A DNA stretch of 64,000 bases from assembly GCA_944349905.1 (NCBI GenBank), contig CALVNR010000002.1, forward strand, positions 98,921 to 162,920, written 5' to 3'. Numbering within the stretch: the first letter of the stretch is position 1; the number at the start of each line of letters is the position of its first letter. The notes below the pieces were generated by a model that was given only the letters and a program-made list of their open reading frames with translations, had not been told where the DNA came from and ran no database searches. Position numbers and translations under genes: made by a program. Positions 21,003 to 28,388 of the stretch are shown piece by piece. Origin of the DNA: an uncultured Clostridia bacterium. Lineage in GTDB: Bacteria; Bacillota; Clostridia; Christensenellales; UBA1242.

Positions 21003-22400
21003 ATGAATAAAAACAAAAGAAATATTATTATAGATATTGATTGTGGAAACACATTTGAAGATGATTTTGCGTTATGTTATGCTCTTGCAGAACCTACATT
21101 TGAAATTAAGGCTATAACATTGTCGCCATATAAAAGTAAAAATATTAACATAAGAGATGCACAAATAGAAAATGCATTGGAAGTGCATAGATTATTTCGT
21201 TATGTAGGATTAAAAAATTATCAACTATGTTATGAAGGAAGTCAAGGCTTTTGTGATAATTTGTATTTTGATAAAACACCAGCGGTAGAAAAGATAATAG
21301 AATTATCAAAAAAACAAGAAATTACTATTGCTTGTTTTGGCGCATTGACAAATGTCGCAATTGCAATAAATTCAAATCCTCAAATAGCCAAAAATATTAA
21401 TGTTGTTTGGATAGGTCTTAGACATTTTTTTCACCAAGAATTTAATGATTTAAATTATAGTTTAGACAAAAAAGCTTTTGAAATAGTAGCTAAAAGTGGG
21501 GCTAATATAACAATTATTCCAAGTTATATTGGAAAATTGTTTTCAGTTTCTTTTGATAAAATGCACGAGGATATATGTATAAACAAACTAGGAAATTATT
21601 TATATCAAAGACTTGAAATGGAAGCTTATCGCAAAACAGATTTTTGTAAATTGTATAGTTTAAATGTAATAGGCTATTTGGTAAATCAAGAAAATTATTA
21701 TGTTAAATCTTTGCCGGTAAATAGTTTATTAAAAGATTTTCCAAAAACAAGTATTAATAAACTTGTAAACTATGTATATGACTTAAAGTCAACCGAATCA
21801 ATTTGGAAAGATTTTGTAAAGAAACTTGAAAAACTTTCCAACAATTTTATGCCTACAAATTACTTTTTTATTTCTGATACACATTTTAATGATCCAAGAA
21901 AATATAAAATAAAACAATTTGGCTATACTTCAAGGGAAGAAATGCTTGAAGAAATGATTAAAAATTGGAATAGTGTGGTTTCAAAAAAAGATATAGTATA
22001 TCATTTAGGTGATTTTGGTGATTATAACATTATAAAAAGATTAAACGGAAAAATTTATTTAATTTGCGGAAATCATGAAATATTGAAAAAAGGTCAGAGT
22101 TTTGAAGATTTTAGAAAAAAACTTAAAGATTTGGGGTTTGCAGATGTTTATCAAGAAGGCTTGATTTTAGATAAAAAAGTTTTTGGACAAGAAATTTATA
22201 TGAATCATTATCCTTCAAAAACAAAAGAAGGCATGGTTAATTTCTTTGGGCATGTGCATACTTTAAAGCCATTGAAAAGAATGGGTATAAATGTTGCTGC
22301 AAATTATCACAAAAATACGCCAATTAGCAAAAAAGATATGAAATTTTTTATAAAATTTGTGTCTGATAATACTTACAGTAAAGAAGATTTTTCTGAATAA
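21003..22400 (+). CDS. Nucleoside hydrolase-like domain fused to a metallophosphoesterase
   Basis: 465 aa, two enzymes in one chain. Residues 1 to about 280 resemble inosine-uridine nucleoside hydrolases: the N-terminal metal loop reads IDIDCGNTFEDDFALCYAL (the family's DxDxG..DD pattern with a longer loop), and TIACFGALTNVAIAI is the family's second motif. Residues about 285-465 are a calcineurin-like phosphoesterase of the COG4186 type: FFISDTHFND, VYHLGDFGD, ICGNHE and FGHVHT supply the metal ligands. Removing phosphate and base from a nucleotide or nucleoside is a reasonable joint role, which is inference. No stop or frameshift lies between the domains. GAGGA precedes the ATG. Confidence 0.8.
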   Translation: MNKNKRNIIIDIDCGNTFEDDFALCYALAEPTFEIKAITLSPYKSKNINIRDAQIENALEVHRLFRYVGLKNYQLCYEGSQGFCDNLYFDKTPAVEKIIELSKKQEITIACFGALTNVAIAINSNPQIAKNINVVWIGLRHFFHQEFNDLNYSLDKKAFEIVAKSGANITIIPSYIGKLFSVSFDKMHEDICINKLGNYLYQRLEMEAYRKTDFCKLYSLNVIGYLVNQENYYVKSLPVNSLLKDFPKTSINKLVNYVYDLKSTESIWKDFVKKLEKLSNNFMPTNYFFISDTHFNDPRKYKIKQFGYTSREEMLEEMIKNWNSVVSKKDIVYHLGDFGDYNIIKRLNGKIYLICGNHEILKKGQSFEDFRKKLKDLGFADVYQEGLILDKKVFGQEIYMNHYPSKTKEGMVNFFGHVHTLKPLKRMGINVAANYHKNTPISKKDMKFFIKFVSDNTYSKEDFSE

Positions 22401-22596
22401 TAAACAAAATTTGGCTTTTGTGAATAAATTTATTATTATAGATATTAAAAAAGTTTGTGATTTTATTTAATATTTAATGTATAACTTAAAAAAAATAGTT
22501 ATAATCAAAAAAAATAAAAAGATTTTTTAAAAAAAATATCAAAAATTCTTGACATTATTTTATATTTATATTAAAATAAACTCGCAAACTGCTTAA
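22401..22596. other. AT-rich intergenic region before the tRNA operon
   Basis: Almost pure A/T. It holds the tRNA operon promoter at its right end; I see no gene or clear hairpin terminator for the upstream fusion gene. Confidence 0.7.
22549..22577 (+). promoter_or_regulatory. Promoter of the six-tRNA operon
   Basis: TTGACA at 22549-22554, 17 bp, TAAAAT at 22572-22577; tRNA-Pro starts 20 bases later. Confidence 0.8.
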
Positions 22597-22672
22597 CGGG
22601 GTGTAGCGCAGTTGGTAGCGCGCGTGGTTTGGGACCATGAGGTCGGGAGTTCGAGCCTCTCCACCCCGACCA
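22597..22672 (+). tRNA. tRNA-Pro (TGG)
   Basis: Cloverleaf with acceptor CGGGGTG / CACCCCG, anticodon stem CGTGG / CCATG, anticodon TGG at 22630-22632, encoded CCA end. First gene of the operon. Confidence 0.96.
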
Positions 22673-22697
22673 AGTCGTAGCAAATTTTGCTGACTGT

Positions 22698-22774
22698 GGG
22701 CCTTTAGCTCAGTTGGTTAGAGCAACCGGCTCATAACCGGTTTGTCCGGGGTTCGAGTCCCTGAAGGCCCACCA
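22698..22774 (+). tRNA. tRNA-Met (CAT), possibly tRNA-Ile2
   Basis: Acceptor GGGCCTT / AAGGCCC, anticodon stem ACCGG / CCGGT, loop CTCATAA with anticodon CAT, CCA encoded. The first pair is G-C, so it is not initiator tRNA. It could be elongator Met or the Ile2 tRNA modified by TilS to read AUA; the acceptor and D-arm look somewhat like Bacillus Ile2, so the identity is open. Confidence 0.92.
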
Positions 22775-22816
22775 ATCAAATTTTGTTATTGACTTTAAGT
22801 TTGTTGCCACTTTTGT

Positions 22817-22893
22817 GGCTCGGTAGTTCAGTTGGTTAGAACGCCAGCCTGTCACGCTGGAGGTCGTGGGTTCGAGCCCCATTCGAGTCGCCA
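22817..22893 (+). tRNA. tRNA-Asp (GTC)
   Basis: Acceptor GGCTCGG / TCGAGTC with two G-T wobbles, anticodon GTC in loop CTGTCAC, discriminator G, CCA encoded. Confidence 0.96.
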
Positions 22894-22918
22894 AATCCTT
22901 ATTTTAGGATTTAAGTTC

Positions 22919-22994
22919 GCCCTGATAGCTCAGTCGGCAGAGCAAAGGACTGAAAATCCTTGTGTCGGTGGTTCGATTCCACCTTAGGGCACCA
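22919..22994 (+). tRNA. tRNA-Phe (GAA)
   Basis: Acceptor GCCCTGA / TTAGGGC, anticodon stem AGGA / TCCT with loop CTGAAAA, anticodon GAA, CCA encoded. Confidence 0.96.
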
Positions 22995-23066
22995 AGATAA
23001 AGTAAGGAAGCAAATAGATATTTCTTCCTTACAAAATCTTAAATTTTTAAAACTTGAAAACAATAT

Positions 23067-23141
23067 GCTGGTGTGGCTCAATGGTAGAGCAGCTGACTTG
23101 TAATCAGCAGGTTGAAGGTTCGATTCCTTTCACCAGCTCCA
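23067..23141 (+). tRNA. tRNA-Thr (TGT)
   Basis: Acceptor GCTGGTG / CACCAGC, anticodon stem GCTGA / TCAGC, anticodon TGT, discriminator T, CCA encoded. Confidence 0.96.
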
Positions 23142-23172
23142 AAAAAGCACCGTAAAGGTGCTTAAATTTTAT

Positions 23173-23257
23173 GGGTAGGTTGCAGAGCGGCCAAATGCAA
23201 CGGACTGTAAATCCGTCGACTTCGTCTTCGATGGTTCGAATCCATCCCTGCCCACCA
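23173..23257 (+). tRNA. tRNA-Tyr (GTA)
   Basis: Type II tRNA of 85 nt: acceptor GGGTAGG / CCTGCCC, anticodon GTA at 23207-23209, long variable arm (GACTTCGTCTTC), CCA encoded. Nucleotides 31-85 are repeated without change at 24569-24623, so this gene's 3' half was probably supplied by an inserted element. Confidence 0.96.
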
Positions 23258-23270
23258 GTAAAAAAAGTTA

Positions 23271-23304
23271 AAGTCCTATTAATTTTTAATAATAGGTCTT
23301 TTTT
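23271..23304 (+). terminator. Terminator directly after tRNA-Tyr (inside the island)
   Basis: CCTATTA / TAATAGG with an outer AAG / CTT, followed by a T-run. It lets the tRNA operon end although the original terminator has been moved 1.3 kb away. Confidence 0.75.
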
Positions 23305-23462
23305 AATTCACAAATTTTTGTTTTTTGTTTAAATTTATAAATAAATTTACAAATAAATAATTTTATATCAAATTTGTTTGTTGCATTATTTATATAAATG
23401 TAAAATCCAAGTAAAATAAGAGCAATTTAAAAATAATACAAAACCAGATAATATTTAAGAAC

Positions 23463-23497
23463 AAAGAAGATACTAATTTGTAATTAGTATCTTCTTT
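23463..23497 (-). terminator. Perfect-hairpin terminator of the island gene
   Basis: A 16-bp perfect stem (23463-23478 with 23482-23497, loop TGT) that overlaps the last codons of the minus-strand membrane protein gene. Confidence 0.75.
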
Positions 23498-23963
23498 TAG
23501 GATGTTTTAAAAACCTATAATCAATTATCTTGTAAATTCCGAAAATAAATAAAAATATGAAAATTATCGAAAAGTCGATTTTAAACATTTCTGGTATTTT
23601 TTCTATGCACATAAAAACAAGAAACGCAACAATAAGCATCATCCAATAAACCAATAAAAAATCAAAAGCGCTTTTTAATCTTGAAATTGAATTGTTTTCA
23701 TTATTGTCAGTTTCGTTTGTCTTTTTACATAATTTTAAACATATATTTGCACCCGTTAATTCGGCAAATATCAAAACAAAAGGATGCAAAATTTTCAAAA
23801 TCTGCCACATATTTTCCTTACTAAAAAACTTTAGATTATCGTAAATTTCTAATTTTATTTGAGAATCTGCAAAGTTTACAAACTTCAAAAATTCTAACAA
23901 ACATAATAAAATTAAAAACACACTTAAAAATCTTAATAGATATATTTTTTTGCTATTGCACAT
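23484..23963 (-). CDS. Membrane protein carried by the tRNA-Tyr island, function unknown
   Basis: 159 aa with four probable membrane segments (near 10-30, 55-75, 100-120 and 125-145) and a short charged loop rich in Asn, Glu and Asp in the middle. AAGGAG stands before the ATG on the minus strand, so it is a translated gene. No family recognised. It is the only convincing gene between the two tRNA-Tyr 3' copies. Its last codons form part of its own terminator. Small membrane proteins in such islands can be immunity or defence cargo, but nothing here shows that. Confidence 0.7.
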   Translation of the reverse strand: MCNSKKIYLLRFLSVFLILLCLLEFLKFVNFADSQIKLEIYDNLKFFSKENMWQILKILHPFVLIFAELTGANICLKLCKKTNETDNNENNSISRLKSAFDFLLVYWMMLIVAFLVFMCIEKIPEMFKIDFSIIFIFLFIFGIYKIIDYRFLKHPKRRY

Positions 23964-24568
23964 TTTATTTCTCCTTATCCATATTCTATTACATCATGAA
24001 AAAATATGCAAGTATATTTCCGTAATTTTATTTACTTATTTTTATAAAATAATGGCGGAAACGAGAAAAGAGGGATGTGAACAAAGCCGTTGCTATGCGT
24101 TTTTGTGAATTTTTATTATTAAAAATTATTTTGCAATATAGACTAGAACAAAATAGCGGGCTTTCTCATAGCAGACTTGGTTTCTTTATGAAAGAGAAAA
24201 AGAAAACTGTAACGCTTTTAACTGTTATGCTCCCAGCCCAAAGTTTTAACATTACACTTATAGGATTTTCAGACAGCCTGTTCTTTTATATGATTAAATT
24301 AGAAATAGATTAAATACAATCACACGTTTCGGGGGTATATTTCTTTCTGTTTTACAAGCGTTTTTTTGTATATTTTATAAATTATAAGCAAAAAAAGTTT
24401 AGGCTTTTTCGTGAAAAGTATGTAATTTTGTGGTTTTATGTCTTTTCAAAAAAAACTTTAATTCTATTGAAAATTGGTATTTTTGAGTAGTCGGTATATA
24501 TTCATAATTATATGTGTTAAAAATTTATTTAATAGATTTTATAAAGCGACATAAAAAGTCTATGTTAA
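23964..24568. other. Right part of the tRNA-Tyr island without a convincing gene
   Basis: About 600 bases. A GTG-started frame of 78 codons (24077-24313) follows AGAGGG but its product resembles nothing I know, and its base use (several GC-rich words such as GCGGGC) differs from the neighbours. The last 250 bases are AT-rich with no frame, no clear hairpin and no integrase remnant. Confidence 0.6.
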
Positions 24569-24623
24569 GACTGTAAATCCGTCGACTTCGTCTTCGATGG
24601 TTCGAATCCATCCCTGCCCACCA
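24569..24623 (+). repeat. Second copy of the tRNA-Tyr 3' half (att-like site)
   Basis: Same as 23203-23257 over all 55 bases, ending in CCA. The sequence before it does not resemble a tRNA 5' half, so it is not a second tRNA gene. Confidence 0.9.
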
Positions 24624-24913
24624 ATGTTTAAATCGCTATAAGTCTTTATTATAAAGACTTGTAGCGATTTTTTTGTTGACAAAGTATTTTTGGACAAAAA
24701 ACTGAAAATAGTTAAATTTGTATGCCAAAAAATCAAAAAAACTGTGTCAGAAACTGTCTCAAAAGCCGTGTCAATTTAGGTTGTATAAATTGTTTAATTT
24801 TGGCTTAAATAGTTTTATGGTGATAAAGTTTGTAAATGTTTTCGTTTTTTAAAGATTTTCTATTTTTTTGTATTTTCTTTTAAATTATTGCAATAATTTA
24901 CCAGCGAGGTGTT
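24624..24913. other. Intergenic region right of the island
   Basis: Contains a strong terminator (24631-24674) and three related 8-mers with exact 12-bp spacing: CTGTGTCA (24742), CTGTCTCA (24754), CCGTGTCA (24766). In one frame they read TVSETVSKAVSI and a stop, preceded by about 25 open codons. The rest is AT-rich without signals. Confidence 0.6.
24631..24674 (+). terminator. Strong terminator, probably the original end of the tRNA operon
   Basis: An 18-bp stem with one T-G wobble (24631-24648 with 24652-24669) and a T-run, directly after the spare tRNA-Tyr 3' half. Confidence 0.85.
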
Positions 24914-25320
24914 ATGGAAATTTTAAAAGGAAAAACTTATTTTGATAAAAGCAAACTTGGAAAACAATATCCATTGATAGAATTATATTTGGAGGAGAAG
25001 ATACAAAATATAAAGGTGTGATTGACGAAAAACAAGTAAACGAAAAATATCAAATATTGTTAAACAATTTGAAAAACTTGTTTCCTGCATTTAAAGAGCA
25101 AATTAATATTGAATATGCTTTTTGTGGTTTGTTTGCTTCTACAAACAACAATATGGGAATTATTTTAAAGACCAATAAAGATAATGTTTTTATTTTTTCT
25201 AGTTGTGGAGCTAATGGTATAATAAATGCTTTTTTTGGAGTTGAACTTCTTTTAGATTTGTTTGACAATAAGGAAAATTGGTTGGAAAAAATTTTTTCAA
25301 TAGAAAGAAAAATATTTTAA
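24914..25320 (+). pseudogene. Internally deleted FAD-dependent oxidoreductase (DAO family) gene
   Basis: Two frames are needed. The first (ATG at 24914, GAGGTG before it) gives MEILKGKTYFDKSKLGKQYP, like the start of DAO-type oxidoreductases, then stops at 25021. In another frame, from about 24953, IDRIIFGGEDTKYKGVIDEK continues to 25320 with FCGLFASTNNNMGIIL and SSCGANGIINAFFGVELL, the C-terminal part of the same family (GGED and G.NGI motifs). Everything between, including the FAD-binding GxGxxG, is missing. The simplest reading is one large internal deletion of a full-length gene of some 350-400 codons. It lies just right of the tRNA-Tyr repeat. The family call is from motif memory. Confidence 0.65.
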
Positions 25321-25332
25321 AAACAATGATTT

Positions 25333-25361
25333 AGAAAAGGTTGTGTCCTTTTCTTTTTTTT
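25333..25361 (+). terminator. Terminator before spoIIAA
   Basis: AGAAAAGG / CCTTTTCT with loop TTGTGT and a T-run. Confidence 0.85.
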
Positions 25362-25437
25362 ATGTTATTTTTCGCCTAAAAGATATATTTTTCTTAATTT
25401 CTATTATGTTATGCTTGATATATCAAAAGGAGCAAAT

Positions 25438-25746
25438 ATGACAATAAAAAGCAAGGTTTACAATAACACACTTTATGTTTTATTGTGTGGAGAATTGGAC
25501 GAACATTCTGCCATGCACACGAGAATTACATTGGACAATGTTTTTTCTGGTGATGATTTTAATCAAATAATCATTGATTTATCTGAACTTGAATTTATGG
25601 ATAGTACGGGTATTGGAGTTTTGATAGGGCGATATAAAAAAATGAAAGATAGGCATATTCCAATTTATATTTGCAATCCTTCAAAGCATGCTGAAAAAAT
25701 TTTTAAAATGACTGGTTTGTATGAAATTATGCCAAAAATTGTTTAA
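25438..25746 (+). CDS. spoIIAA: Anti-sigma F factor antagonist SpoIIAA
   Basis: 102 aa STAS-domain protein. The start has AAAGGAGC 6 bases upstream; an earlier in-frame ATG lies before that site. The phosphorylated Ser is Ser56 in LEFMDSTGIGVLIGRYK, the standard SpoIIAA site. Unphosphorylated SpoIIAA binds SpoIIAB and frees sigma F in the forespore after asymmetric division; SpoIIAB phosphorylates it, and SpoIIE (not in this window) removes the phosphate. First gene of the spoIIA operon, 11 bp before spoIIAB. I could not identify a confident sigma H promoter upstream. Confidence 0.96.
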   Translation: MTIKSKVYNNTLYVLLCGELDEHSAMHTRITLDNVFSGDDFNQIIIDLSELEFMDSTGIGVLIGRYKKMKDRHIPIYICNPSKHAEKIFKMTGLYEIMPKIV

Positions 25747-25757
25747 GGGGAGAGGTT

Positions 25758-26210
25758 ATGAATATTCAAAATAATTTTATGGAAGTAACATTTAAAGCTT
25801 TATCAATTAATGAGAGCTTTGCAAGGATTTGTGTTTCTGGATTTTGTATACAATTAAATCCAACAGTTGACAAAATAAACGATATAAAAACAGCAGTTTC
25901 AGAAGCAGTAACAAATTGTGTTGTTCATGCTTATCCAAAACACAATGGAATGGTTGTTTTAAGATGCGAGATAGAAGGAGATTGTGTAAAAATAAAAATC
26001 TCTGACAAGGGTGTTGGAATAAAAGATATAAACAGAGCCAGAGAACCTTTCTTTACTACAAAGCCAGATGATGAAAGAAGCGGTATGGGATTTTCAGTTA
26101 TGGAAAGCTTTATGGATAAAGTGGAAGTTGAAAAAAATGATGATAAAGGTATAACTGTTACAATGTATAAAAAGTTGAATAATTGTAAAGTGCAGGTGGG
26201 CAATGCTTGA
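25758..26210 (+). CDS. spoIIAB: Anti-sigma F factor and protein kinase SpoIIAB
   Basis: 150 aa GHKL-type ATPase/kinase: N box EAVTNCVVHAY, G1 box ISDKGVGIKD, and SGMGFSVMESF as the G2 box. It holds sigma F inactive and phosphorylates SpoIIAA on Ser. GGGGAGAGG precedes the ATG. The stop overlaps the start of sigF by 8 bp, the usual coupling of the anti-sigma factor with its sigma factor. Confidence 0.96.
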   Translation: MNIQNNFMEVTFKALSINESFARICVSGFCIQLNPTVDKINDIKTAVSEAVTNCVVHAYPKHNGMVVLRCEIEGDCVKIKISDKGVGIKDINRAREPFFTTKPDDERSGMGFSVMESFMDKVEVEKNDDKGITVTMYKKLNNCKVQVGNA

Positions 26211-26919
26211 TAACCTTCAAATTTTGTCTTTGGTGGAACAAGCTAAAAAAGGCGACCAGAAAGCAAAAGAAGTGTTATTAAAAGAAAATTCTCCTCTTAT
26301 AAAAAGTTTAATAAAAAGATTTAAAGATAAGGGGATTGAATATCAAGATTTATATCAAATTGGCTGTATGGGCTTTTTAAAGGCATTGAATAATTTTAAT
26401 ATTGATTACAATGTAAAATTTTCAACTTATGTTGTTCCGATGGTTATAGGGGAAATAAAAAGATTTATGCGTGACGATGGAGCTATAAAAGTTTCCAGAG
26501 TTTTAAAAACTTTAAATCTTCAAATAAACAAATATATAGAAAAGTATTTTGCTCAGTTTCAAAAGAATCCTACAATAGAAGAAATTGCAAAACATTTTAA
26601 TGTTGAAGAACAGGAAATTATTTTGGCTATGGATTCTGCTAGGATGCCTGTTTCTTTATACTCACCATTGGATGATGGCGATGAATCTTTGCTGGTTATG
26701 GATAGAATTGAAGGTGAAGAAGGGAGTTTTATACTAGATAATTTGGCTTTAAAAGAACTATTATCAAAGTTGGATAAAAGAGAGCAAAAAATAATACTAT
26801 TAAGATTTTATTATGATAAAACGCAAGGAGAAATTGCAAACCAATTAAAAATTTCACAAGTTCAAGTTTCAAGATTGGAAAATAAAATTTTAGAGAATCT
26901 TAGAAAAAAACTTATATGA
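26203..26919 (+). CDS. sigF: RNA polymerase sigma factor F (forespore)
   Basis: 238 aa sigma-70 family protein of the sporulation group. Region 2: LIKRFKDKGIEYQDLYQIGCMGFLKALNNFN and FSTYVVPMVIGEIKRFMRDDGAIKVSR. Region 3 follows (PTIEEIAKHFNVEEQEI). Region 4 has LLSKLDKREQKIILLRFYYDKTQGEIANQLKISQVQVSRLE. The order spoIIAA-spoIIAB-sigF is diagnostic and separates it from sigma G. It directs the first forespore genes. A 22-bp near-palindrome starts 7 bases after its stop, then a terminator. Confidence 0.95.
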   Translation: MLDNLQILSLVEQAKKGDQKAKEVLLKENSPLIKSLIKRFKDKGIEYQDLYQIGCMGFLKALNNFNIDYNVKFSTYVVPMVIGEIKRFMRDDGAIKVSRVLKTLNLQINKYIEKYFAQFQKNPTIEEIAKHFNVEEQEIILAMDSARMPVSLYSPLDDGDESLLVMDRIEGEEGSFILDNLALKELLSKLDKREQKIILLRFYYDKTQGEIANQLKISQVQVSRLENKILENLRKKLI

Positions 26920-26925
26920 TGTGTC

Positions 26926-26947
26926 TAGTATTTATGCATAACTACTA
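26926..26947. repeat. Palindrome site C (TAGTAnTTATG / CATAAnTACTA)
   Basis: Two 11-base arms that match except for one position each, centred between sigF and its terminator. The left arm recurs at 33074 and 50413. Confidence 0.5.
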
Positions 26948-26959
26948 TATATTGAAAAA

Positions 26960-26987
26960 AAGAAAAGTTTTCACTTTTCTTTTTTTA
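26960..26987. terminator. Bidirectional terminator after sigF
   Basis: AAGAAAAGT / ACTTTTCTT with loop TTTC, flanked by A- and T-runs, between sigF and the convergent lipoprotein gene. Confidence 0.85.
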
Positions 26988-28388
26988 CATCACTTTTGAG
27001 CCTTTGTTTTTATCTTCGCAATATCTAGGCGTAGTAAATTTTTTGGTTATTAATTTAGGTTCAACTTTTTCAGAATTTAATTTTGCACTATTTGCAGACA
27101 TTGTATTTGTATTATTTGTATCATTTAAAGTATTCGTTGTGTTTTGAGTGTTATTTAAAGAGCTATTGTCAGTCTTTAAATTCTCTGTTTTTGTTTTTTT
27201 TCTTAAATTTTTTAAAATTGAATTTCTATTGATTTCAATATTATTGTTTTGAGTTTTATCTGTGACAATATTCGTTAAACTATCTTCATTTGCTGTTTGG
27301 TTGTCTATATTGTTGTCAATATTATTGTTTGTTTGAAGAATTTGATTATTTTGATAATTGTAGCCAGTTGTATTTCTACGATTATTTATATTTCTATAAG
27401 TGTCAATATTTCTTCTAAAAGGACCATATGTGTCAGTATTTCTATTTGGATTGAATGTTTGGTTATTTCCATAATTGTTATAATTGTAATATCCATTATT
27501 ATATGCTCTGTTATAGTTGTTTGAATTGTAATAATAAGGATTATTGTTTTCTTGGTAATTGTTATAAGTGTTATTATTTGCAACATTATTATTGTAGTTA
27601 TAACCATTATTGTATGTTTTATATGTGTCTATGTTTGGAGCAAATTTTCTTCTAGTGTTTGTGCTGTTATTGTTGCTGTTATTATTCGTATAATCGTTTT
27701 GATAATTGTTTGTTTGAGAAATATTTTGATTGTCTGTTTGATTTGTATTGTTTAAAGTATTGTTTTGACTGCTGTACAAATCTGTTAAATTATTATTTTG
27801 TTGATTGCATATGTTACAAGATTTATAAATATTTTCTACTTCTTCTAAACTTGTTAAAAGATTTTCAAGATAGGCCTCTCTTTCTTTCAAATTACTGTTT
27901 AATTCAACATAAAGCGAATTTAATTCTTCGTAGTTTGTATTAGAAATATTATTTTTATTTTTTATTTTATTTATACTGTTGTTTAAATCGTTTCGGCTGT
28001 TGCTTAAACAATTTAGATATTTACTTATATTCTTTGATAAATTGTTTATAGCACTTGCTTTGTCATTTCCGAGTTTTAAGTTGTTTTGTTGATATGACTT
28101 TATCATAGAAGTTGTTTGTAAGATTTGTTGTTGTAATGATGATTCTGATTGAGCTGAGTATAAACTTACATTTTTTTGACTGGTCAAGTTTGTGTTGTTT
28201 TCGTTTTCTATATAATTTGCTGGTGTTACAGAATACAAATTGTTTGCATTTGCTGAAACTACAACATTATTAACTCGGTCCAACTGGTTGTTTAAATTTT
28301 TGGTTGCCTCACTATCGCTTATTCCACCACATCCAACAAGTGTTAAGCAAGAAAGTAGACAAATTGATGATAAAATTACTTTTTTCAT
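26985..28388 (-). CDS. Asn-rich putative lipoprotein
   Basis: 467 aa. A signal peptide ends with lipobox LVGC (Cys20), so Lgt should anchor it in the membrane facing outward. Residues about 60-200 are helical and likely coiled coil. From about 200 to 370 the chain is of very low complexity, dominated by Asn, Tyr and Thr, with a recurring motif N-[IT]-D-T-Y (PNIDTYKTY, RNTDTYGPF, RNIDTYRNI). The C-terminal part returns to mixed composition and ends with TTPRYCEDKNKGSKVM. No family recognised. It lies between sigF and spoVAC, and a sporulation role is possible only by position. The Asn/Tyr tract looks prion-like or like a spore-surface or adhesive protein. The ATG has GGAGG upstream. Confidence 0.8.
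   Translation of the reverse strand: MKKVILSSICLLSCLTLVGCGGISDSEATKNLNNQLDRVNNVVVSANANNLYSVTPANYIENENNTNLTSQKNVSLYSAQSESSLQQQILQTTSMIKSYQQNNLKLGNDKASAINNLSKNISKYLNCLSNSRNDLNNSINKIKNKNNISNTNYEELNSLYVELNSNLKEREAYLENLLTSLEEVENIYKSCNICNQQNNNLTDLYSSQNNTLNNTNQTDNQNISQTNNYQNDYTNNNSNNNSTNTRRKFAPNIDTYKTYNNGYNYNNNVANNNTYNNYQENNNPYYYNSNNYNRAYNNGYYNYNNYGNNQTFNPNRNTDTYGPFRRNIDTYRNINNRRNTTGYNYQNNQILQTNNNIDNNIDNQTANEDSLTNIVTDKTQNNNIEINRNSILKNLRKKTKTENLKTDNSSLNNTQNTTNTLNDTNNTNTMSANSAKLNSEKVEPKLITKKFTTPRYCEDKNKGSKVM

Follow-up and report, generated by a model that had tools for sequence, protein, structure and literature searches.

We find that a small insert in a tRNA-Tyr gene and a second island, located in a tRNA-Leu(TAA) gene of another species of the same genus, have in common a non-coding right end and a plan in which an HTH gene lies divergent to a cargo gene. 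The insert is part of the window, by which we mean the whole 64,000-nt stretch of DNA analysed here, and it is 1.3 kb of foreign DNA that has entered a gut Clostridia genome by clean insertion in a tRNA gene. With moderate confidence we consider this island a non-autonomous integrative element with exchangeable cargo, whose right end would be recognized by a tyrosine recombinase acting in trans. The features of the locus are as follows.

23173..23257 (+): tRNA-Tyr (GTA), called by ARAGORN and Rfam; its 3' part, 23203-23257, is the attL-side copy
23258..24568: inserted island, 1311 bp, 23% G+C, missing from the empty sites in G088, G061, G057:C10 and G024
23266..23306 (+): island-borne terminator-like hairpin 3' of the rebuilt tRNA, fold -9.3 kcal/mol, z -3.8
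23460..23502: strong terminator-like hairpin where p159 ends, fold -17.3 kcal/mol on the minus and -16.8 kcal/mol on the plus strand
23484..23963 (-): p159, a 159-aa ORFan with four hydrophobic segments and a strong Shine-Dalgarno, no convincing relative
24008..24021: operator-like site, a perfect palindrome in G116, G053 and G051 and nearly so in G001, broken in the window by two changes
24077..24313 (+): p78, Cro/C1-type HTH gene, probably decaying, 68% identical to its G001 relative
24314..24568 (+): conserved non-coding right end, 255 bp, common to G116 and G097
24537..24556: most conserved block, TTTATAAAnCnnCATAAAA, directly before the core; candidate recombinase site
24569..24623 (+): displaced tRNA-Tyr 3' half (attR-side copy), an exact repeat with no tRNA call
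24628..24678 (+): original tRNA-cluster terminator, fold -23.8 kcal/mol, directly behind tRNA-Tyr in empty sites

A clean insertion in the tRNA-Tyr anticodon loop

The last 55 nt of tRNA-Tyr (23203-23257) recur at 24569-24623 in direct orientation and at a spacing of 1366, with 55 of 55 bases identical; the longest exact repeat in 200 dinucleotide-shuffled versions of 22001-27000 is 20 nt. Both ARAGORN and Rfam recognize tRNA-Tyr at 23173 but no tRNA at 24569, and no 5' half stands ahead of the spare copy. The insertion point is precise and lies in the anticodon loop, the tRNA gene being whole and its displaced 3' half being found at the far end. The original prediction, which had described a perfect 55-bp repeat of the tRNA-Tyr 3' half around an island lacking an integrase, is borne out on both counts: there is no integrase in the 1311-bp insert, and the eight PF00589 matches of the genome are all on other contigs. 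It had further placed one terminator, brought by the island, after the rebuilt tRNA and the old one to the right of the spare copy, and both of these fold well. Where it had described a one-gene island, p159 with its four hydrophobic segments stood, while a second gene-like ORF, p78, had been missed; because p78 has relatives, the insert is not a single-gene unit.

Empty sites were found in four relatives (G088, G061, G057:C10 and G024), in which tRNA-Tyr directly abuts the old terminator or its homologue, as had been anticipated for strains without the island. The aligned rows are similar across the tRNA, with a deviating variable arm in G024, and the terminator stems match up. G088 has the same flanks as the window, namely lgt, divIVA, SDR, nucleoside hydrolase and then the tRNAs on the left, and a p100 relative or remnant, spoIIAA, spoIIAB and sigF on the right (flanking proteins are 80-91% identical). 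Given these four empty sites, the insertion is specific to the window's lineage among the relatives compared. Together with the spare copy that has no 5' half, they uphold the earlier description of a non-autonomous or shrunken integrative element, to which p78 and a right end common to G116 and G097 (both with tRNA-Leu halves) now have to be added, as these had been overlooked.

It is very improbable that nothing was inserted here, and that the locus instead arose by duplication of tRNA-Tyr with loss of the 5' half of the second copy, or by an assembly error. One relative, G020, does carry two full tRNA-Tyr genes close together, but comparison with the empty sites reveals the insert as extra DNA between tRNA and terminator, other orphan halves begin at the same anticodon-loop point, the same plan is found again in G116, and the locus lies well within a contig of 162,920 bases. 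The second tRNA-Tyr remnant with a 5' half that the original prediction had named as the competing case was looked for, and no 5' half was found. As far as sequence can refute it, this alternative is already refuted.

Of the named relatives obtained via spoIIAB (80 of 374 confirmed loci were kept), most are uncultured Clostridia MAGs. The G057 bin contains an empty as well as an occupied tRNA-Tyr site, on different contigs (C7, C9, C10; L151, L147, L128), and may thus mix strains. To the right of the island, 24915-25320 is what a large internal deletion has left of a FAD-dependent oxidoreductase gene; G061 has a far longer version (L126:1994-3232, listed as two ORFs), and the gene is broken in G088 too.

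A right end common to tRNA-Tyr and tRNA-Leu sites

We scanned 617 tRNAs (210 non-redundant fetched loci plus the window) for displaced 3' fragments and obtained 26 matches, two of which, the window and G116, have an insert of more than 1 kb. The G116 island measures 2573 bp, lies in the tRNA-Leu(TAA) gene of a different species of the genus, has no integrase and is built as follows.

L256:1620-1705: tRNA-Leu(TAA)
L256:1746-3677 (-): membrane-anchored Mrr nuclease, 643 aa, hydrophobic segments at the N-terminus and an Mrr_cat domain at the C-terminus (E 2e-27)
L256:3775-4023 (+): HTH gene
L256:4279: displaced 57-nt tRNA-Leu half, starting GACTTAAAATCC

The displaced half of the window starts GACTGTAAATCC, at the same position of the anticodon loop as that of G116, and in both islands the HTH stop codon is separated from the core by 255 bp. 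Their DNA is 70% identical along a 452-bp stretch that starts in the intergenic region, includes the HTH gene and enters the right end, and 76% identical over 64 bp spanning the very end and the first core bases. Comparison of the right ends yields 180 identities in 231 aligned positions between window and G116, and 208 in 255 between window and G097. The full 281-base query from the window right end aligns with G097:C6 at 80%, the match reaching as far as a displaced tRNA-Leu half. In all three pairings of window, G116 and G097, none of 300 shuffles scored as well.

A right end of ∼255-266 bp joined to the anticodon loop is thus present in all three, and beside it lie a divergent cargo gene and an HTH gene. 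The HTH of G097 is of a different type, a DUF4352 lipoprotein is present, and an operator of the G116 kind is missing; several HTH genes occupy the 2.56 kb to the left of its right end. Its displaced tRNA-Leu half has 8 mismatches to the sole intact tRNA-Leu(TAA) in the 58% of the genome read, so that the two are not a matched pair. The repeat in G116 does not stop at CCA but continues for 72 nt and reaches the end of the Mrr gene (129 nt in total), suggesting that this site had already received an insertion before.

With a cut-off of E<=1e-5, 3 of 309 family genomes carry the right end, all in this genus, and the two carriers of which both ends are known (window and G116) have no integrase. 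An integrase-bearing element with this right end was not found in the 309 family genomes, a thin sample of one genome per species, and neither was a recombinase using the right end of window, G116 or G097. When queried with the window right end, G116 itself scores E 3e-4, below short matches in G007, G042, G060 and others; its kinship is based on the longer alignment through the HTH gene, on the G097 query (E 1e-16) and on the three-way shuffle test. Matches to the window right end at E<=1e-3 occur in 26 of 112 genus genomes; those beyond window, G097 and G116 are short stretches of 24-65 nt, which we regard as chance and have dropped. The G116 query, which includes the HTH gene, hits 44 of 112 genus genomes, many by the HTH or by short stretches, and the best of these matches were examined further. 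When the three right ends are folded into one consensus RNA structure, the covariation term is slightly unfavourable (+1.46), and we therefore make no RNA claim; in the first hairpin of that structure, behind the HTH gene, 4 of 7 pairs are broken in the window sequence.

Cargo and control genes

The cargo gene p159 looks intact, together with its ribosome-binding site and terminator. AAGGAG precedes its ATG, and an ORF of this length did not arise in any of 2000 dinucleotide shuffles of the insert (longest 130). Its hydropathy profile has four hydrophobic segments, the last two with overlapping edges. The original prediction had proposed looking for this protein in larger islands, and here nothing was found: there are no relatives among the genome contigs, viral contigs, phages and plasmids searched, and within the genus 1 of 112 genomes, the window's own, contains it. 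At the level of the order, 35 of 396 genomes match at E<=0.1 (the best non-self match, 7e-5, contains stop codons), and we judge these matches to be noise from membrane composition. Profile searches gave DUF2929 at E 0.0019, under its cut-off, and two weaker matches in Pfam, no value better than 0.08 in PHROGs and none in NCBIfam. A single-sequence structure prediction (pLDDT 56, five helices, two PDB matches, both E 7.9) was not used.

p78 starts 113 bp from p159 in divergent orientation and belongs to a Cro/C1-type HTH family with members in 73 of the 112 genus genomes. Pfam gives no match for p78, whereas its G001 relative matches HTH_26 (4e-8). The operator-like palindrome reads GCAAGTATACTTGC in G116 and G053 and TACAAGTATACTTGTA in G051, and is broken in the window. 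The missing Pfam match and the broken palindrome indicate that the control part of the island, p78 plus operator, is probably decaying. Of 23 invariant residues, 5 are changed in p78, compared with 0 to 6 of 23-29 in other relatives, and this count does not settle whether p78 decays.

Relatives of the HTH gene occur in several surroundings. G001 has a tRNA-Leu(CAA), an Mrr-type gene and the HTH gene, with a tRNA fragment of just 20 nt at a distance of 200 nt behind the tRNA; G118 has an HTH remnant next to tRNA-Leu(CAA). For the relatives in G051 (beside an Mrr-type gene) and G053 (beside a 339-aa protein), the 8 kb read show no neighbouring tRNA; a tRNA site is therefore not required for the HTH-cargo pair to persist.

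As to function, the earlier idea of a defence, immunity or satellite role for p159 has found no direct support, the sole hint being the membrane-anchored Mrr nucleases that adjoin relatives of the HTH gene; by analogy with these Mrr-type genes next to close HTH relatives, a role of the cargo in defence is at most plausible. Searches for defence proteins returned a weak PADLOC match for p159 (E 0.005) and none for p78, and the Mrr-type protein of G001 matches several PADLOC nuclease models.

Three genes (L256:1746-3677, L257:2147-3562 and L034:5337-6785) encode N-terminal hydrophobic segments followed by a C-terminal Mrr_cat nuclease, each paired with a divergently transcribed HTH gene from which a palindromic or nearly palindromic operator separates it, and we regard the Mrr_cat protein and its divergent HTH as a candidate defence pair. 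Small Cro-type HTH genes also stand in close arrays, four in L325 (G080:C25) and three in L260 (G012:C1).

Proposed movement in trans, possible decay and other elements at these tRNAs

Tyrosine integrases use tRNA anticodon loops. With no integrase on board, the recombinase of the window island either came in trans or has been lost since, and the occurrence of the same right-hand module in two islands at two different tRNAs favours the former. A tyrosine recombinase supplied in trans would recognize the right end and the anticodon stem-loop core, and would have joined the attP of the island to the anticodon stem-loop of tRNA-Tyr; the structure expected of this reaction is the one seen in the window. 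The island's own 3' half would rebuild tRNA-Tyr, with the hairpin at 23266-23306 taking the place of the terminator. The anticodon loops differ little (CTTAAAA in tRNA-Leu and CTGTAAA in tRNA-Tyr), and the same recombinase may insert such islands into different tRNAs. The HTH protein would formerly have repressed itself and the divergent cargo gene via the palindromic operator. The cargo would be exchangeable, a membrane-anchored Mrr nuclease in G116 and p159 in the window, and may guard the host against phages.

A serious rival, to which we assign a substantial minority chance, is independent decay, in which the islands are remnants of larger, formerly mobile integrase-bearing elements of one family that once had the integrase at the left end and have since lost all DNA from the tRNA to the last genes. 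CIMEs (cis-mobilizable elements), which are described as elements that have lost integration and transfer genes and as decay products of ICEs and IMEs (PMC5704250), are the named outcome of such a process. Decay also occurs at this very site, where G068, G076 and G065 contain scars of another integrase-bearing family; p78 and the operator look decayed, and the several HTH genes next to the G097 right end are what a prophage or ICE might have. However, two islands in different tRNAs retain the same right-hand module and the same divergent plan with one cargo gene, and no integrase-bearing parent was seen in the 309 family genomes (one per species; the left end of G097 is unread). Structurally, the window island is a CIME-like tRNA island: it keeps attL and attR and has no integration or transfer genes. 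It differs in that no parent with its right end was found and in its compact plan common to two islands, and the label does not cover a right end shared across tRNAs with swapped cargo.

A family of integrase-bearing elements occupies the same tRNA-Tyr site, and filamentous-phage parentage was therefore the first idea considered; the end motifs and the missing TGACGAA repeats speak against it. Orphan tRNA-Tyr halves, all starting at the anticodon loop, were found in 4 of 112 genus genomes (window, G049, G057 and G122) with a pattern that by design cannot detect tRNA variants or orphans carrying a G at one position. In G122 and G049, a tyrosine integrase gene ends ∼90 nt before the orphan half at the same breakpoint, and a related integrase in G054 (51%) precedes an orphan tRNA-Leu(TAA) half, so that one integrase clade uses both targets of the small islands. 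The tentative view of the G122 and G049 elements as filamentous-phage-like is based on their integrase, on a gene resembling replication initiators (PHROGs) and on a weak Zot-like match in G049 (E 0.0018).

The window island could be a satellite of these elements and use their integrase at the same anticodon loops, as the double target range of the clade and the Zot-like match would allow, but we consider this improbable. The TGACGAA repeats near the ends of those elements are absent from the window insert and from the G116 and G097 stretches. When the window ends were compared with the end motif, 1703 of 2000 shuffles were as good on the right and 1073 of 2000 on the left; the right ends of G122, G049 and G057, by comparison, were equalled by 0, 59 and 57 of 2000. 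Searches of viral contigs for p159, the tRNA half, the integrase and the ATPase gave no match; the ATPase-like protein of G057:C9 has no family match. The G122 and G049 prophages share target and breakpoint with the window island and differ from it in being much larger and in having their own integrase and other end sequences. Phage satellites and hitchers resemble the window island in that it would rely on a helper's enzymes; in contrast to them, no packaging, replication or helper-manipulating gene was recognized in it.

Movement of the island by a recombinase in trans thus remains our preferred reading. More tentatively, and with a probability we place well below even, it may belong to a mini-island family without integrases, 1.3 to 2.6 kb in size, in which a single membrane-bound effector, controlled by an HTH protein and its operator, is combined with the 255-bp right end. 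A helper recombinase would move such islands between the anticodon loops of different tRNAs, making them MITE-like, tRNA-targeted vehicles for defence genes. The pairs of HTH and membrane-anchored Mrr genes in G116, G001 and G051 resemble the window island in their divergent arrangement of an HTH and a membrane-protein gene and in related HTH and intergenic DNA, whereas the window cargo, p159, has no nuclease domain and no known relative. As in the tRNA islands detected by Islander, a rebuilt tRNA and a displaced 3' fragment mark the island ends; the window insert, in contrast, lacks an integrase and is shorter than 2 kb. The published Islander filters demand an integrase and at least 2 kb (PMC4383910) and would reject it, and with such filters in the standard search compact integrase-less islands are overlooked. 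No description of this island or its family was found among the titles and abstract openings surveyed. The right end, shared with two similar pieces beside other tRNAs, hints at a family of tiny islands borrowing another element's recombinase. Being common to tRNA-Tyr and tRNA-Leu sites, it is a concrete probe for further such islands, and a way of asking what recombinase is responsible for their movement and if their exchangeable membrane cargo protects against phages.

The tRNA-Tyr sites of other genomes show further traces of insertion. Among 85 full-length loci of 84 other genomes, of which 76 offered at least 1366 nt for inspection (9 further loci have no full gene by this test), the only additional displaced tRNA-Tyr half downstream was that of the second tRNA-Tyr in G020. 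TGACGAA occurs within 100 nt behind the tRNA at 12 of the 85 loci, and at 10 of them, as assessed by eye, within the AT-rich left-end signature of the integrase-bearing family. Some of these ten are scars: in at least three (G068, G076, G065) the SDR gene that in other genomes follows the tRNA cluster lies within 0.5-1.5 kb, and most of the element must therefore be gone. The tRNA-Tyr prophages of G122 (L138/L264, L146) and G049 (L265, L143) span at least 11.6 and 14 kb, assuming that the two contigs of each represent one element.

Units of ∼150-210 nt were observed behind tRNA-Thr (L225, L220, L208), tRNA-Phe (L081, L139, L244) and tRNA-Tyr (L141, L227, L026). Each contains, by eye, an antisense stretch of its tRNA and ends with a copy of the 3' 20-39 nt of the tRNA; often the beginning of the terminator region is copied after it as well. 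Together they represent a recurrent non-coding unit.
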